From Aquificota bacterium (GTDB lineage Bacteria; Aquificota; Aquificia; Aquificales; Hydrogenothermaceae): a stretch of 32,973 bases of DNA. This document shows, in pieces, positions 1 through 32,973 of this stretch (position 1 is its first letter; each line of letters opens with the position of its first letter). The position numbers and the translations under genes are program-made. The notes below the pieces were generated by a model that worked only from the letters and a program-made list of their open reading frames with translations, was not told where the DNA came from and did not search any database. The DNA lies in the NCBI GenBank assembly GCA_013153635.1, contig JAADDZ010000013.1, forward strand, positions 1 through 32,973. Direction: 5' to 3'.

Positions 1-30
1 AAAGTAGAAAAACTTAAACTAAAAAGACAG
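1..30. repeat. Left arm of a 30-base perfect inverted repeat (partner 301-330)
   Basis: Bases 1-30 are the exact reverse complement of 301-330, which lie inside the lapA-like gene. Read on the plus strand from base 1 they encode KVEKLKLKRQ, then Tyr and a stop at 34-36. That is the same ten residues found in the lapA-like protein just after its second membrane segment. The repeat reaches the window edge, so its full length cannot be seen. It may be the end of an inverted partial copy of the gene, or a fold-back artefact at a contig end. Confidence 0.9.
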
Positions 31-71
31 TACTAAACCAAAGTATATTATATAGTTTATGTAATTTTGGG

Positions 72-121
72 CATATACAAAAATCTTTTTCACAGTATAA
101 ACCTGTCTCTTTTTGTATATG
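72..121. repeat. 12-base inverted repeat with a nested 4-base stem
   Basis: CATATACAAAAA (72-83) pairs perfectly with TTTTTGTATATG (110-121). Inside the 26-base loop, ACAG (92-95) can pair with CTGT (103-106). The structure lies just beyond the 3' end of the lapA-like gene. It is AT-rich and lacks a GC stem followed by a T-run, so it is not a textbook terminator. It could still be an RNA 3' end structure or the trace of a small inversion. Confidence 0.6.
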
Positions 122-150
122 TTCGGAGTTTGATATATTTTTATTAGCTA

Positions 151-540
151 TTATGTTTCTTCTAGAGGGTTTATCTCTTCTATTTTTATGTTTTGTTCTT
201 TTTTTAGTAAGGCTATCTCCTCTTGTAATTTTTTTATCTCTTCTTCTAGCTGTTTATTTTTCTTTGTACATTTTTCTAGCTCGTGTTTGGTTAGATTTAT
301 CTGTCTTTTTAGTTTAAGTTTTTCTACTTTAAAAACAAACCAGTCTGTAATAGTAAACATAAGTATCATAACAGCTCCTAATATCATACTAAGTATGATA
401 ATAAGTGCTAGAGGAAGCTCTGGGGTTTGATAAGTAGGCAATAGCTTTATAGCTACCGAAGGTTGGGTGTTCATGGACACAAAGTAGGCTACCAATAAAA
501 GGATAATTAGCCATATTACTAACCTTATTTTCCCTATCAT
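151..540 (-). CDS. LapA-domain (DUF1049) inner-membrane protein
   Basis: The 129-residue product has two hydrophobic segments at about residues 5-25 and 42-65. A long Lys/Glu-rich coiled coil follows at about 72-118. This is the architecture of the LapA/DUF1049 family, whose E. coli member works with LapB in controlling lipopolysaccharide assembly. The start codon overlaps the stop of the upstream HIT gene as ATGA, so the two are translationally coupled. It is the last gene of a run beginning with the NlpC/P60 gene. Bases 301-330 of this gene are repeated in inverted orientation at 1-30. The family call rests on topology and the N-terminal hydrophobic pattern; no lapB is next to it. Confidence 0.7.
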   Translation of the reverse strand: MIGKIRLVIWLIILLLVAYFVSMNTQPSVAIKLLPTYQTPELPLALIIILSMILGAVMILMFTITDWFVFKVEKLKLKRQINLTKHELEKCTKKNKQLEEEIKKLQEEIALLKKEQNIKIEEINPLEET

Positions 541-1025
541 AACACTTTCTCCAGATTTTCTTTTAGTCTTTTGTATATCTCTTTTAGGTCTTGAGATATG
601 ACTCTAACTTCAGCAAGAACAGGCATAAAGTTTGTATCACCTATCCATCTTGGAACTATATGGTTATGTATATGGTCTTCTAATCCTGCTCCTGCGGCTC
701 TTCCAAGATTGTACCCTAGATTAAAACCGTCTGGTTTTAAGGTTAATTCTAAGAGTTTTACCATCTGTTGAGTTACTGTAGATATTTCACACAGAGTATC
801 TTTGTCTAATGCTGTAAAGTCTCCAATATGTTCATTGGGACATACTAACAGATGTCCAGCGTTGTAAGGGAAAAGATTCATAATCACAAACACTTTTTTG
901 CCTCTATACAGTACCAAGTTTTTTTCATCATCTTTTTCTTTATATGCTTTACACAAAAAACATTCGTTGTCTTTGCTTAAGCCTTCTATGTATTGAGAAC
1001 GCCATGGAGAATATAACCTTTCCAT
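537..1025 (-). CDS. HIT-family nucleotide hydrolase/phosphorylase
   Basis: The 162-residue protein carries the histidine triad His118-x-His120-x-His122 (DHIHNHIV), the catalytic signature of nucleotide-binding HIT hydrolases and transferases. The N-terminus (MERLYSPWR) and a Cys22-x-x-Cys25 pair match the zinc-containing HIT subgroup that includes Ap4A phosphorylases and related dinucleoside polyphosphate enzymes. The exact substrate cannot be read from sequence. The ATG is preceded by AGAGG. The gene sits 11 bases after priA and overlaps the lapA-like gene by four bases, so it is probably co-transcribed with both. Confidence 0.88.
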   Translation of the reverse strand: MERLYSPWRSQYIEGLSKDNECFLCKAYKEKDDEKNLVLYRGKKVFVIMNLFPYNAGHLLVCPNEHIGDFTALDKDTLCEISTVTQQMVKLLELTLKPDGFNLGYNLGRAAGAGLEDHIHNHIVPRWIGDTNFMPVLAEVRVISQDLKEIYKRLKENLEKVL

Positions 1026-1036
1026 ATAATACCTCT

Positions 1037-3082
1037 TTATATTATTTGTTTTGGGTCTATATCAATTATTAATTTTATACCTTTTCTCCTGCATTTTTCA
1101 TATAGTTGTATGAGTTTTTGTTTATTTTTAAAGTTTTTTAGGATTATCTGTATCCTCGTCTTCCCTCTCATATACGGATAATAGGCAAAAAACGCTCCTT
1201 TATAGTTTATATTGGTGATTCTCTCTTCTAAAATCCAATTTTTAAATATCTTTTCCACTGTTTCTATATCTAAATTTCTTTTTTCAAATGTAAGCAAGAT
1301 AAGTTTTGTGTAAGGAGGTAGCTCAAACTCTTTTCTAAGATATAGCTCTTTTTCATAGAAGATACTTGGGATTTTTTTTTCTAAAGCCTTTACCGCTATG
1401 TTTTTTATACTATTGGTGACTAAAATATACTTTTTCTGGGCTTTAAATATACCTAAGTATATATTCTTAAAATATCTTTCATTACCTCTAAAATCATTTA
1501 TGTTCAGTAGAAAATCTGGATATATGTTTAAAATAAGCTCAAAATCTGGAATAAGGAGTTCTTTGTCTACTATACTAGTGGCAAGTTTTATCTTTGTATC
1601 TACACTAGCTTCTAGGTAGCTTATCTGGTTTTTAAAATATCTATTTAATATTTCTTCTATTCTTTCTATCCCAAAACCTATTTCTATAAGCTCTTGATGA
1701 CAAGTTGGGCAGTACTTAAGGTATTGGTACTTTTGGTTACAAAGTTCACATCGTAGATATTTTTGAGGTTTACTGTAGATTTTCAAAGGTATCTCACAGT
1801 TAGGACATGTTATCTCTTCCTCACATTTTACACAGTACAAAAAGGAAGCATACGCTTTTTTGTTCGCAATGATGAGAACTTTTTGGTTCTGCTCAATCTC
1901 GGTAATAATCTTTTCGGTAAACAACTTTTCTTTGTTCAAAGGGGTTATCTGCAGTTCTACATCTGGGATTTTCCATTTTTGGAAATTTTTAAAAAAGTTT
2001 GTTTTTTGTAGATAGTAAGACTCTACAGAAGATATAGTAGATGCAAATAGTAGAATACTACCCTTTTGGTTAGAAGTCTCTAAAACAACTCTTCTTGTAT
2101 CAAATCTAGGAACTCTTAGAGCTTTGTAGCTGTCAGAGGATTCATCTTCCAAAATAATAAGTCCCAACCTATCTGTAGGTACTAAAGCTCCACTAAAAGT
2201 CCCTACTAAAATAGTCCCAAAATATTTTCTAAAGTTAAACCATGTTTCTATCTTTTGTTTACCACTTATCCCATCGTGATAAACGAAAACTTTGTCTGCA
2301 AAATGTTTCCTTAAAAAGGAATAAACATAGTCTACCGCTCTTACCGAAGGAAATATAAGAAAAACATCTTTTTTTTCTTTTATTTGGGAATAGATGATAG
2401 GAAGATACCTTTTTATTCTATCTATTTGTTTGTCAAATGAATAAAGGTATCTTCTATCTTTTAGAGGTTCTTCCTTTAGGTAAGTTGGTTGTCTAGCTTT
2501 TAAGGTTGCTTCCCTAAATAAAAATTTTTCCTCTTTAACCAAACCTTTTTTTATCAAGGTCTTCAGTGAAGAAACAGAAAACCCAAACTCAACAATCTCC
2601 TTTCTAGTAACTTCTCCTCTTTCTAAAATAAATTCTAATAGCTCTAGAGCCTTTAATGATAACTTTTGAATACCTGTAGTGCTAACCACTGTGGGGATAT
2701 ATATCTTTTCTTCTTTTACTGTTTTTATCCACCTTCCCTGTTTTTTTTTCCAATTTAATACATCAGGAAGAAAAAAATTAACTGTTAGTCCTAGAGGTGA
2801 TACATAGTAGTTTGATAACTTTTTTAGAATGTCTAGTTCTAGTTTTGTAAAAACCACATCTTTATCTGGTATTTCTTCTATAGGTTTTACTTGGTAAGAG
2901 GGTTTTTTTGTGTGGTCTATGATGATACCTGTAAATCCAGTATTTCTAAAGGGTACTAATACTCTCCTACCGATTAACTCTTTGTTATCTAACTGTTTTA
3001 AGATTTCTAAAGGTATCTTGTAAGTGAACGTTTTATATTGGGCAATAGGTATAGCTACTTCTACATATATCTCTTCTTCCAT
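1037..3082 (-). CDS. priA: Primosomal protein N' (PriA) with degenerate helicase motifs
   Basis: The 681-residue protein aligns over its full length with PriA, the replication-restart initiator that binds forked DNA. Conserved parts are the N-terminal DNA-binding domain (about 1-105), the paired zinc sites with eight cysteines at 417, 420, 426, 429, 444, 447, 458 and 461, and the C-terminal ELPPYTKL region (about 587-594). The ATPase motifs are not conserved. The Walker A position (GxTGSGKTE in E. coli) falls in SFDKQIDR near 215-222. The DEEH box is LEDES (311-315). The motif III position (GSATP) reads ASTIS, and QVAGRAGR of motif VI is unrecognisable. The frame is intact, so this looks like a stable non-helicase PriA rather than a pseudogene. 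The start overlaps the hslV stop by one base. Confidence 0.88.
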   Translation of the reverse strand: MEEEIYVEVAIPIAQYKTFTYKIPLEILKQLDNKELIGRRVLVPFRNTGFTGIIIDHTKKPSYQVKPIEEIPDKDVVFTKLELDILKKLSNYYVSPLGLTVNFFLPDVLNWKKKQGRWIKTVKEEKIYIPTVVSTTGIQKLSLKALELLEFILERGEVTRKEIVEFGFSVSSLKTLIKKGLVKEEKFLFREATLKARQPTYLKEEPLKDRRYLYSFDKQIDRIKRYLPIIYSQIKEKKDVFLIFPSVRAVDYVYSFLRKHFADKVFVYHDGISGKQKIETWFNFRKYFGTILVGTFSGALVPTDRLGLIILEDESSDSYKALRVPRFDTRRVVLETSNQKGSILLFASTISSVESYYLQKTNFFKNFQKWKIPDVELQITPLNKEKLFTEKIITEIEQNQKVLIIANKKAYASFLYCVKCEEEITCPNCEIPLKIYSKPQKYLRCELCNQKYQYLKYCPTCHQELIEIGFGIERIEEILNRYFKNQISYLEASVDTKIKLATSIVDKELLIPDFELILNIYPDFLLNINDFRGNERYFKNIYLGIFKAQKKYILVTNSIKNIAVKALEKKIPSIFYEKELYLRKEFELPPYTKLILLTFEKRNLDIETVEKIFKNWILEERITNINYKGAFFAYYPYMRGKTRIQIILKNFKNKQKLIQLYEKCRRKGIKLIIDIDPKQII

Positions 3083-3618
3083 TACAGTTCTTCAATAGTT
3101 ATGTTCTGGTTGGTGTATATACATATTTGAGAAGCTATGCTCATCGCTTCTTCTACAATTTTTCTAGCTGAAAAATCAGTATTTTTGTACAGAGCTAAAG
3201 CGGCTGACCTTGCAAAATCTCCTCCAGAACCTATAGCAAGAACTGGTTCATCTGGTTCAATAACATCACCGTTTCCTGATATTAAGAGCATTCTCTCTTT
3301 ATCTGCCGCAACCAATATAGCTTCTAATCTCCTTAGGTACTTATCAGTTCTCCAATCTTTAGCAAGCTCTACAGAAGCCTTGAGAAGATTGCCTCTATAT
3401 TTATTTAACTTTTCTTCTAACCTTTCCATAAGAGCTAGTCCATCTGCGGCACTTCCAGCAAATCCTACCACTACTTTTCCGTCAGAGAGCTTTCTAATCT
3501 TCTTAGCGGTTGCCTTCATAACAGAGTGACCAAGAGTTACTTGACCGTCCCCTGCTATAACTGTTTTACCGTCTTTTCTAACTACGCATATAGTAGTACT
3601 TCTTATTTTAGAATCCAA
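3082..3618 (-). CDS. hslV: ATP-dependent protease subunit HslV (ClpQ)
   Basis: This is the 178-residue peptidase subunit of the HslUV proteasome-like protease. The [11 protein letters not shown]-terminus, GDGQVTLG and the [17 protein letters not shown] block are typical of HslV. Removal of a seven-residue propeptide would expose Thr8 as the catalytic N-terminal threonine. Translation most likely begins at a TTG (3616-3618), with AAGGAG 12 bases upstream; no in-frame ATG fits the family start. The gene overlaps the NlpC/P60 gene by 11 bases and priA by one base. The partner ATPase HslU is not in the window and must be encoded elsewhere. Confidence 0.93.
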
Positions 3619-4204
3619 AGCTTTGTGTTTCTCCTTCTTTTTTGGAACTATTATATGCTATCTTTGGGTCGTATAAAAATACCCTTTTCGCAAAAAGAAA
3701 ATGCCTTAGATAGTAGTCTTTGTCTATATTTGAAATTATTATCCTTCCACCAGCAGAAGAGGCATGTATCATCTTCCCTTCTCCTATATATATACCTACA
3801 TGGGAAGGGAATCTAGCATAAGTCCTAAAAAATAGTAAATCTCCCGGTTTTAGATTTTCTCTATTTACAAACAGACCAAACTGGGCTTGGTATCTTGCAG
3901 TTCTTGGTAGCTGTATACCTAGCATAGCGTATACCTTTTGAACAAAGGCGGAGCAGTCCATACCTCTAACAGATTGCCCTCCAAATTTATACTGTATCCC
4001 TAACAACCCAATAGCAAAATCCACAATGTCTCTTTGGAGATTTGGAGCAGGGATTCCATCATCTATCATTACCGCCCTGTACCGTTCTTTTTCGTAATTA
4101 ATCTTTAGAGTTTTGTAATAATCACTTTCTATAGGCAACGGCTCTACAGCCATACCAAATCCAAATATACCAAGTGCAACCCCCACACACGCTAAAAATT
4201 TCAT
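3608..4204 (-). CDS. Exported NlpC/P60 cell-wall peptidase
   Basis: The 198-residue protein has an N-terminal signal sequence (residues 1-20, hydrophobic core [15 protein letters not shown]) and a C-terminal NlpC/P60 papain-like domain. The catalytic Cys84 is in GMDCSAF and His135 is in PSHVGIY, with His147 in the MIHAS motif as the likely third residue. Such enzymes cleave D-Glu to diaminopimelate bonds in peptidoglycan stem peptides. I chose the ATG at 4202-4204 because AGAGG lies about seven bases upstream. The longer frame from a TTG at 4225 would put that site inside the gene. It is the first gene of the hslV-priA-HIT-lapA run and has its own candidate promoter. Confidence 0.87.
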
Positions 4205-4246
4205 TTTAAACCTCTTTAAATACAAATTTTGATTTATTATTCTTTA

Positions 4247-4275
4247 ATATTAATTTTATAAATTTTCGTTTTCAA
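4247..4275 (-). promoter_or_regulatory. Candidate sigma-70 promoter of the NlpC/P60-hslV-priA run
   Basis: On the minus strand TTGAAA (4270-4275), a 17-base spacer and TAATAT (4247-4252) lie about 45 bases upstream of the chosen NlpC/P60 start. Each box matches the consensus at four or five of six positions. The surroundings are extremely AT-rich, so chance matches are common. Confidence 0.4.
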
Positions 4276-4332
4276 TTGTATTTCGGTTTAAAATTTTAAA
4301 GCTAAATGAATATTAACACAAAAGGAGATTCT

Positions 4333-4974
4333 ATGGACATTCTTTTTGAAGAAAAACAAAAAGCTGTACAGGCTTTAAATGACCTAAAAATAGAACTCCA
4401 CAAAAAAGGGTGGTTTCCGGCAACAAGTGGAAACTTGTCCCTAAAGGTAAGGAACAATCCTCTAATATTTGCTGTTACCTCTAGTGGAAAAGACAAAGGG
4501 AAAGTAACCCATGAGGACATCTTGTTTGTAGACAAAGATGCAAAACCTATCCAGCAAACAAACCTAAAACCTTCAGCAGAAACAAAGATACATTCGAAGA
4601 TATATCAGAATACTGATGCTTCTTGTGTTATTCACATACATACAGTAAATAACAACTTCCTATCAGAGGTTTTTTTCGAAAAAGGATATGTACCTATAAA
4701 AGATTTGGAAATGATAAAAGCTTTAGACATATGGGAAGAGAACGCCTATATTAAAATCCCAATTGTAAAAAATTTCTTTGACCTAGACACGTTAGCCCAA
4801 GAGACAGAAAAAGTTATAACCAAAAAAGTACCAGCAGTACTTATAAGAAATCACGGGGTATATGTATGGGGGAAAAATGAGTTCGAAGCAAAACGACATG
4901 TAGAAGCTTTGGAGTTTATGTTTGAGTACATGAAAAACCTTATACTGTTTAAAGGCTCACTAAATATCTGGTAG
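4333..4974 (+). CDS. mtnB: Methylthioribulose-1-phosphate dehydratase (class II aldolase family)
   Basis: The 213-residue protein belongs to the class II aldolase/adducin fold. In the methionine salvage pathway MtnB dehydrates 5-methylthioribulose-1-phosphate. The expected landmarks are GWFPATSGNLS near residue 26, the SSGKDKG loop, SAETKIH with Glu83, and the zinc ligands His101 and His103 in IHIHT, plus the RNHGVYVWG block near the C-terminus. The start is the ATG at 4333, which has AAAGGAG (4321-4327) at ideal spacing. An in-frame ATG at 4306 lies upstream of that site and is rejected. No other methionine-salvage gene is in the window. A related class II aldolase function cannot be fully excluded. 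Confidence 0.85.
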   Translation: MDILFEEKQKAVQALNDLKIELHKKGWFPATSGNLSLKVRNNPLIFAVTSSGKDKGKVTHEDILFVDKDAKPIQQTNLKPSAETKIHSKIYQNTDASCVIHIHTVNNNFLSEVFFEKGYVPIKDLEMIKALDIWEENAYIKIPIVKNFFDLDTLAQETEKVITKKVPAVLIRNHGVYVWGKNEFEAKRHVEALEFMFEYMKNLILFKGSLNIW

Positions 4975-4985
4975 TCGATTTAAGG

Positions 4986-4991
4986 TATAAT
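4986..4991 (+). promoter_or_regulatory. Candidate -10 box for lepB
   Basis: A perfect TATAAT lies about 30 bases upstream of the lepB ATG, in the short spacer after mtnB. I see no convincing -35 box at the usual distance, so this is weak evidence for a lepB promoter. Confidence 0.3.
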
Positions 4992-5021
4992 TTTTAAAAT
5001 TTTATTTAAAACGGAGGTTTT

Positions 5022-5747
5022 ATGGAAGAAAAAGAAGAAAACAGAGGAGAAAAGAAGAAAAAAGGTATAAAAAATCTTATAGAAACAGTGATTTTTATAG
5101 TAGTTGTAGTATCTATCATAAGAGTATTTTTTGTGCAAGCTTTCAATATACCATCTGGCTCTATGAAACCTACATTACTAATAGGAGATTTTATCCTCGT
5201 TAACAAACTAGTATACGGTAGTTGGGACATAGGAATTCCGTTTACAAATATAATCTTTTACCACTATAACAACAGACTTACAAACCCTGACAGAGGGGAC
5301 ATAATCGTTTTTAAGTATCCTGAAAACCCCAAAATAGATTTTATAAAACGAATAGTAGCCCTTCCGGGAGACAAAGTAGAAGTAAAAGATGATTTGGTAT
5401 TCGTAAATGACAAACTGTTAAAACGAGAATACATAGGAGATTTTAAAGAGTACGGAACTAACATAGCCAAAATGTATAGAGAAACCACCATTAGAAAAAA
5501 TGGAAAACCATACTCATACACAATAATGGAGATAGATGATGGTCTTGGGAAAGATTTTGGACCTATCGTTGTTCCAGAAGGTCATTATTTCGTTATGGGA
5601 GATAACAGAGATAACAGTAAAGACAGTAGATTTTGGGGGTTTGTACCAGAAGATTACATAATAGGACAAGCTTTTGTTATCTACTTTTCTATAGATTTCA
5701 AAAAACCAGCTATTAGATTTTCCAGAATTGGAAAGATTATCCAGTAA
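5022..5747 (+). CDS. lepB: Signal peptidase I
   Basis: The 241-residue membrane protease removes signal peptides from exported proteins. A charged N-terminus precedes one membrane anchor (about 19-38). The box A motif IPSGSMKPTL then places nucleophile Ser47, and the general base Lys109 lies in DFIKRIVALPGD. The later GDNRDNSKDSR motif is the conserved box E. This Ser/Lys pair matches E. coli Ser90 and Lys145. The ATG is preceded by CGGAGG. The gene lies between mtnB and pyrC with short spacers. Confidence 0.95.
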   Translation: MEEKEENRGEKKKKGIKNLIETVIFIVVVVSIIRVFFVQAFNIPSGSMKPTLLIGDFILVNKLVYGSWDIGIPFTNIIFYHYNNRLTNPDRGDIIVFKYPENPKIDFIKRIVALPGDKVEVKDDLVFVNDKLLKREYIGDFKEYGTNIAKMYRETTIRKNGKPYSYTIMEIDDGLGKDFGPIVVPEGHYFVMGDNRDNSKDSRFWGFVPEDYIIGQAFVIYFSIDFKKPAIRFSRIGKIIQ

Positions 5748-5794
5748 TTGATAATATTATTATTTAAAGCAAGAAAATTTGTGGGAGAAACAGA

Positions 5795-7099
5795 TTGGAA
5801 ACAATCCTCATAAAAGGAGGTCACATAATAGACCCTCAAAACAACTTAAATAGTGAACTAGACATAGTTATAGAAAAAGGTAAAATTACAAAAATAGAAA
5901 AAAATATACCTCCTTTCCCAAACTGTAAAGTGATAGACGCTTCAGACTGTATAGTATCTCCTTCATTTACAGACCTACATGCCCATCTAAGAGACCCGGG
6001 ACAAACATACAAAGAAGATATAAAAACTGGCAGCTTATCAGCAGTAGCAGGGGGATTCACAACTGTAGTGTGTATGCCTAACACGATACCAGCTATAGAC
6101 GAACCCTCTTTAGTGAGATACGTTATAGAAAAAGGAGAAGAAATCGGTCTATGTAGAGTTCTCCCTACAGGAGCAGTAACAAAAGGAAGAAAAGGACAAC
6201 AGCTCACAGAAATGGCACTTCTCAAAGATGCAGGAGCTGTTTATTTTACAGATGACGGAGCGCCTATTATAGATTCTAATATTATGAGAAAAGCTATGGA
6301 ATATGCGGCATCTTTAGGTACATTTATAGCAAACCATTGTGAAGATACAGCACTTTCAAAAGACGGGATAGCCCACGAAGGAGAGATAGCCGCCGCTTTA
6401 GGACTACCTCCTCTACCCCCAGAAGCAGAGGAAAGCATGGTTGCTAGAGACTGTATTTTATCTATCAGAACTCAAGCACCAGTACATATATGTCATATAT
6501 CTACAAAATTAGCAGTAGAAATCGTTGCATGGGCTAAAGCTATGGGAGCTAATGTTACAGCAGAAGTTACACCCCATCATTTGTATCTTTGTGATGATGA
6601 ATGGCTAGACTTTCATTGTAAGGCAAAAGTCTCTCCTCCATTGAGAGAGTTTGAGGATATAGAAGCTGTCAGATGGGCGCTCTCTTCAAAAATAATAGAC
6701 TTTGTAGCAACAGACCACGCTCCCCATGCACACCACGAAAAGATGTTAGACCATTGGAGCTGTCCTCCGGGTATGATTGGACTACAGTTCGCTTTACCTA
6801 TAGTTTTAGAGCTTGTACGAAAAGATTATATAAACATAGTAAGAGCTGTAGAAGTTCTATCTACAGAACCATCAAAAAAGATAGGGTTAAAACCCCCTTC
6901 TATACAAAAAGGCAATACCGCAGAACTGGTGATATTCAATCCAAATGAACCTTGGGAAGTTACTGAAGATAAAATATTCTCAAAAAGCAAAAACACTCCC
7001 TTACTTGGGAGGAAACTAAGAGGAAAAGTAAAATACACCTTTTATAAAGGCAAAATAGTATATCAAGATAGCTCCAAACAAGAGTTTTGTTATGATTAA
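5795..7099 (+). CDS. pyrC: Dihydroorotase (class I, PyrC/AllB type)
   Basis: The 434-residue amidohydrolase closes carbamoyl-aspartate to dihydroorotate in pyrimidine synthesis. The metal-binding HAHLRDPG motif has His62 and His64, GGFTTVVCMPNT follows near residue 87, and catalytic Asp307 lies in ATDHAPH. Translation starts at a TTG (5795-5797) with GGGAG about seven bases upstream; METILIKGG is a normal N-terminus for the family. The 3' end overlaps the next gene by eight bases. Class I dihydroorotases often pair with aspartate carbamoyltransferase, but pyrB is not in view. Some relatives are allantoinases; the HxHxRDPG context favours dihydroorotase. Confidence 0.93.
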   Translation: METILIKGGHIIDPQNNLNSELDIVIEKGKITKIEKNIPPFPNCKVIDASDCIVSPSFTDLHAHLRDPGQTYKEDIKTGSLSAVAGGFTTVVCMPNTIPAIDEPSLVRYVIEKGEEIGLCRVLPTGAVTKGRKGQQLTEMALLKDAGAVYFTDDGAPIIDSNIMRKAMEYAASLGTFIANHCEDTALSKDGIAHEGEIAAALGLPPLPPEAEESMVARDCILSIRTQAPVHICHISTKLAVEIVAWAKAMGANVTAEVTPHHLYLCDDEWLDFHCKAKVSPPLREFEDIEAVRWALSSKIIDFVATDHAPHAHHEKMLDHWSCPPGMIGLQFALPIVLELVRKDYINIVRAVEVLSTEPSKKIGLKPPSIQKGNTAELVIFNPNEPWEVTEDKIFSKSKNTPLLGRKLRGKVKYTFYKGKIVYQDSSKQEFCYD

Positions 7100-7409
7100 A
7101 GAAGAATCAGTACTCGAAGCATTAAAAGAAGTTTGTGACCCAGAGATACCATTGAATTTAGTAGATTTAGGTTTAGTAAAAGATGTAACCTGTGATGATG
7201 ATACAGTAAAGATAGAGATGACCTTAACTACCCCAAAATGCCCCCTTGAAGACTACATTATCAACTGTGTAAAACAAAAAATCAAAGAAAAATTCCCACA
7301 AGTAGAATATATCACAGTAAACCTATCGTTTGATGAAGTTTGGAAGCCAGAAAAACATATATCTGAAGAAGGTAAAAAAAAGCTTAGAGAGTTAGGTTGG
7401 GATATATAA
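7092..7409 (+). CDS. MIP18 / DUF59 family protein (SufT/PaaD-like, Fe-S assembly)
   Basis: The 105-residue protein starts with a helix and the family signature DPEIPLNLVDLGLV (residues 17-30). A conserved TTPKCPL loop with Cys50 follows. MIP18-family proteins act in iron-sulfur cluster assembly or delivery (SufT, Cia2) or as parts of ring-hydroxylase systems (PaaD). The assembly role is more likely in a genome with no visible aromatic degradation genes, but this is inference. The gene overlaps the pyrC 3' end by eight bases, so coupling is likely. Its last 26 bases overlap the convergent kinase-like gene. Confidence 0.85.
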   Translation: MIKEESVLEALKEVCDPEIPLNLVDLGLVKDVTCDDDTVKIEMTLTTPKCPLEDYIINCVKQKIKEKFPQVEYITVNLSFDEVWKPEKHISEEGKKKLRELGWDI

Positions 7410-7998
7410 ACTGGGCAAAAATCCCAGTACCAAGAGGAACAATAATGTTATCATCTAGATAGAGCTTTTTAGAACTAGAAAAAAGCTCAAAAATTCCTCC
7501 AACTAAAGAAAAAATAAAAGCCTCCTTAAAAGGAAGGACAAACAAAAGAGCTAATGTATTTACAATCACCCCTCCTAAAAACCCTTCGTAAGACTTCTTT
7601 AATCTGTACTTACCAAAACCTATCTTGTGTTTACCAAACAAAAGCCCAAAAATAGTAGCAAAACCATCGTATACAGAGTAAGTAATAATAACAATTTTTA
7701 GGACATCTTCATTAAACAGAATTCCAGATATAAAAATACCTATCAAACTCCCTACAGCTTGTCTTCCGGGAAAAGTTTTAAGATTATCTTCTCTTTCCAT
7801 TTTATCTATAAAAAACCACAATATATTTGTAAGCCAGTTACGTACACCAAAGTAAAAGACTCCTACACCTACAGCTATTCCTACAGCAGAAGTAATAAGA
7901 ACTCCTTCCTTCCCAAAAAGCTCTAAGATAACCAAAAACGAAAGACCACTAACTATATGAAAAAGCTTTCTAGGTATCTCTTTTTTCAAATCAGCCAT
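7384..7998 (-). CDS. Diacylglycerol/polyprenol kinase family membrane protein
   Basis: The 204-residue protein is mostly hydrophobic with about six membrane segments. It carries the hallmarks of the CTP-dependent dolichol/phytol/diacylglycerol kinase family (SEC59/DGK1/VTE5): RKLFHI at 10-15, YDGFA around Asp111, KSYEGF at 135-140 and DDNIIVPL at 182-189. In a thermophile this could recycle a prenol or phosphorylate a lipid precursor; the substrate is unknown. The ATG has AAGGAG about 13 bases upstream, a long spacing. It is a single-gene unit, overlapping the DUF59 gene tail to tail and divergent from the repeat-protein gene. Confidence 0.8.
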   Translation of the reverse strand: MADLKKEIPRKLFHIVSGLSFLVILELFGKEGVLITSAVGIAVGVGVFYFGVRNWLTNILWFFIDKMEREDNLKTFPGRQAVGSLIGIFISGILFNEDVLKIVIITYSVYDGFATIFGLLFGKHKIGFGKYRLKKSYEGFLGGVIVNTLALLFVLPFKEAFIFSLVGGIFELFSSSKKLYLDDNIIVPLGTGIFAQFIYPNLTL

Positions 7999-32869: not shown

Positions 32870-32883
32870 TCAGAAATGCTTAT

Positions 32884-32958
<75 letters not shown>

Positions 32959-32973
32959 TTTTTATTTTGTAAT

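Follow-up and report, generated by a model that had tools for sequence, protein, structure and literature searches.

Inverted joins predominate among the chimeras described for MDA: Lasken and Stockwell (2007, PMC1855051) report 406 inverted chimeras out of 475, and in 337 of these 406 the joined parts lay <10 kb from each other. In the model outlined in that paper, 3' ends anneal at complementary segments that occur at random. Library preparation can also give inverted-repeat chimeric reads, as put forward in the PDSM model (PMC10908179). A narrow term search of the literature returned no paper on chimeric inverted repeats as an assembly artifact at metagenome contig ends. Here, we analyze a perfect inverted repeat at such an end and conclude that it is most likely an artefact, not a real genetic feature.

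The stretch of DNA under study (“the window”, 32,973 bases) is the complete contig C26 (G000:C26:1-32973) of a 28-contig, 1.69-Mb assembly, G000, the other 27 contigs of which were also examined. Base 1 of the window is thus where a contig ends, and no sequence further left exists in the assembly. A sequence-only reading had noted that bases 1–30 are the exact reverse complement of 301–330, which recomputation bore out: the two arms are 100% complementary over 30 nt, with 270 nt between them. This pair is the longest exact inverted repeat of the whole window, while the runners-up in a scan for repeats of at least 16 nt reached 18 nt and were all self-palindromes. The same reading had called the identity far beyond chance, rightly so: window base composition predicts ~8e-9 perfect 30-base inverted repeats, and a chance origin was rejected. 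It had also pointed out that both copies encode KVEKLKLKRQ. They do so because they are reverse complements of each other, i.e., this is not separate evidence. The peptide is present in a 129-aa ORF that contains the 301–330 arm and matches Pfam LapA_dom (PF06305) at 38.5 bits against a cut-off of 28. We assign the features of this end as follows:

1 to 25, plus strand: fold-back extension, very probably non-native; exact reverse complement, i.e., inverted copy, of 306–330, where contig C189 of genome G005 carries other sequence
26 to 30, no strand: fold-back junction with the 5-base microhomology GACAG, common to native 26–98 and the inverted arm (CTGTC at 301–305)
31 to 98, minus strand: native sequence, the start of a gene; matches G005:C189, with a diverged homologue at the same place after lapA in contig C200 of genome G002
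151 to 540, minus strand: lapA-like gene (LapA_dom), the 129-aa ORF, Pfam PF06305
301 to 330, minus strand: native arm within lapA, the probable fold-back template; the lapA region of G002 aligns across it

The assignment of native sequence was made by comparison with related genomes. Window 26–98 corresponds to C189 101–29 with 72 of 73 bases identical, the caveat being the one differing base and the binning of C189 in G005, a genome of another genus. The 5-base length of the junction is the distance from the start of this match (window 26) to the end of the arm (window 30). Past the shared stretch, C189 goes on with other sequence and without an inverted lapA copy. It carries, in order, a 166-aa ORF whose start is the shared stretch, a 153-aa ORF and a 504-aa ORF. 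Pfam was scanned with these three ORFs and with three from the window (lapA, HIT and priA-like): the 504-aa ORF is a secretin (PF00263, 109 bits), and the 166-aa ORF had no Pfam match at 0.01. From its position and an N-terminal membrane segment, our guess is that the latter is PilO-like.

The same gene order was found in G002, a congener. There, window 110–1013 aligns at 6951–7855 (plus strand) of C200 at 81%, the 301–330 arm included, and C189 67–2547 aligns at 4369–6888 (minus strand), so that lapA is immediately followed by the secretin cluster, oriented as expected from the window. Compared by eye, the boundary sequences continue alike between the end of lapA and the next gene. In G001, from the window's genus, lapA and the secretin region are on separate contigs (C40 and C43), and this gene order may therefore not be universal. 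Taken together, the C189 match and the G002 gene order indicate that window 31–98 is native and that 1–25 would be fold-back. On the same comparison, we infer that the chromosome of G000 should continue beyond base 26 as C189 does.

Next, we evaluated terminal inverted arms across the assembly. For all 56 contig ends of G000, the first 50 bases were locally aligned to the reverse complement of bases 51–700, with 1064 interior positions of the same stretches as controls. An arm score of at least 20 was reached at 5/56 ends vs 0/1064 interior positions, and one of at least 14 at 7/56 vs 1/1064, the controls being partly overlapping and not independent. The five highest-scoring ends were:

C25 start: arm score 41
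C24 end: arm score 41, arm 7–47 against 76–116
C26 start (the window): arm score 30
C3 start: arm score 23, one mismatch in 26 bases
C20 start: arm score 22, one mismatch in 25 bases

An exact-match test required the arm to start in the first four bases and searched 3 kb at 82 ends (56 from G000 and 26 of ~400 from G005). Arms of at least 18 bases were found at six ends, i.e., C25, C26, C20 and C3 of G000 and C189 and C2 of G005, while the largest among 1394 interior controls was 15. These controls were searched over 1 kb, which slightly favours the ends, and the six values were unchanged when the ends were also searched over 1 kb. The C24 end scored only 11 bases here because its arm begins at base 7, not base 1. 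Inter-arm distances across the fold-backs ranged from 28 to 308 bases.

Two of these ends have features of their own. At C24, the outermost six bases lie outside the inverted arm and a direct copy of the first 11 bases is found at 84, and there may be a second rearrangement at this end. G005:C2 starts with a perfect 28-base self-palindrome (1–28), either a terminator-like hairpin or a loopless fold-back.

For two further joins, the neighboring contig is known. The end of C13 overlaps C25 inward from base 37, with 55 exact bases up to the fold-back; as the C25 arm extends to base 41, the microhomology consists of the 5 bases GAGAG. This join is contiguous in contig C38 of G002, where the C13 end (2386–5384) and the C25 start (1798–2435) both align on the minus strand. 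Similarly, the end of C23 overlaps C24 from base 44 over 28 bases, with the arm ending at 47 and a 4-base microhomology, TTTG. In both cases, the neighbor overlap ends where the fold-back starts, as at the end of the window. No neighboring contig was found for the fold-back ends of C3 and C20.

Ordinary overlaps between contigs were also seen. Exact 91-base shared ends link four pairs (C13–C18, C19–C9, C21–C9 and C25–C26), and 91 bases is perhaps the k-mer size of the assembler. Such k-mer overlap was considered as a cause of the terminal repeat and rejected, since the 91-base overlaps join different contigs and not inverted copies of a contig's own end. The last 91 bases of the window (32883–32973) are the exact dovetail overlap with the C25 end; part of this segment also matches C28 at 97%, and a repeat may lie at the C25–C26 join. 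The contigs probably follow one another as C13–C25–C26–(G005:C189). Elsewhere in the assembly, the C1 end carries a 22-base unit about every 66 bases over ~540 bases, and C11 starts with one unit and an 84-base overlap, which suggests a CRISPR array with its edge at C11.

C189 has a fold-back of its own: bases 1–36 are the reverse complement of 280–315 (36 bases), joined at an 8-base microhomology, ATACTGTG. Both other genomes searched from the genus of the window, G001 and G002, match the first 3000 bases of C189, and G003 does so weakly, with no match in G012 or G018, two other genomes of the genus of G005. The last 3000 bases of C189 gave 76% matches in G003, G018 and G001 and none in G000. 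Judging from the matches of its start, C189 may derive from the window's own lineage and have been misbinned.

Given these results, we weighed other origins for the terminal repeat. Of the two alternatives in the sequence-only reading, C189, G002 and the 5/56 vs 0/1064 contrast uphold an artefactual fold-back at the end of a contig and speak against a genuine inverted duplication or an inversion switch. If the 5' part of lapA had truly been duplicated in inverted orientation to the left of the window, and recently so, this would account for a base-1 copy without mismatches that the contig edge truncates. Yet the gene next to lapA continues past the junction in both C189 and G002. In a search of G000 with window 1–400, all matches apart from the window and its two arms were at 75–88% and 33 to 94 bases long. 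We consider this duplication very improbable, and the same holds for a real invertible segment at ~26–305, i.e., one that has short inverted repeats at its borders and occurs in either orientation within the population, where the assembler would have joined one orientation to each side. The junction geometry alone does fit an inversion of 26–305 with the ends GACAG and CTGTC. However, site-specific switches typically have repeats longer than 5 bases, the inversion would sever both the 3' end of lapA and the start of the next gene, and terminal inverted arms also occur at unrelated contig ends. A search of the window's own genome found no second place for the segment in either orientation. The adjoining contig C189 likewise counts against it with another fold-back: the two fold-backs have different ends and are therefore not one invertible segment. 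Provided that C189 is the neighbor, the same defined inverted repeats were not seen from both sides, as they would be for a switch.

The assembly could also have broken at 26–98 because of a repeat, for instance the end of a mobile element; in favour of this, the 73 bases are nearly identical in G005, a genome assigned to a different genus. Across 41 genomes of the family, the stretch was found only in G000 and G005, once each, at an E-value of 0.001 in a DNA-level search, which would miss diverged copies; moreover, an ORF begins with it, and a diverged homologue occupies the corresponding position in G002. On the single occurrences in these two genomes, this reading was rejected, with the chance of its being right close to nil. 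One observation is left unexplained by an artefact alone: C26 and C189 break within ~70 bases of each other, a coincidence for two assemblies. In each contig, the G+C content is 20–30% over the first 350 bases, and low G+C may contribute. That lapA and the secretin cluster instead meet at a true hotspot of structural variation, with short inverted rearrangements arising in cells and both assemblies folding back there for that reason, strikes us as highly unlikely.

The reading that we prefer is that of a contig-end chimera. With a high degree of confidence, on the sequence comparisons above, bases 1–25 would not be chromosomal at this place and would represent the tail of an inverted, fold-back chimera of amplification or library origin. 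The repeat lies at a contig terminus, consists of a microhomology-joined inverted copy of nearby sequence, and has counterparts at contig ends and not in interiors, and the native continuation, taken to be C189, differs from the fold-back. Specifically, a strand leaving lapA leftward into the next gene would anneal via GACAG/CTGTC to the complementary strand ~270 bases back and would then be copied from that point, yielding the inverted lapA tail. The assembler would extend a weakly supported contig end into the chimeric sequence and then stop, and we infer that coverage at the C26 end is weak. The chimera would have arisen through MDA template switching, through strand annealing during library preparation or within the assembly graph. 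These results call for caution with terminal inverted repeats at contig ends, which can mimic inversion switches; in addition, the fold-back caps with known neighbors (C13–C25 and C23–C24) hide real joins.

Compared to described systems, this case differs from the PDSM chimeras, which, as presented in PMC10908179, come from human tumour DNA and hybrid-capture libraries. The 28–308-base distances between the arms would also fit a limit set by library fragment size. In its form, the terminal repeat is nonetheless like the inverted MDA chimeras as described in PMC1855051: nearby sequence is joined in inverted orientation via short complementary segments.
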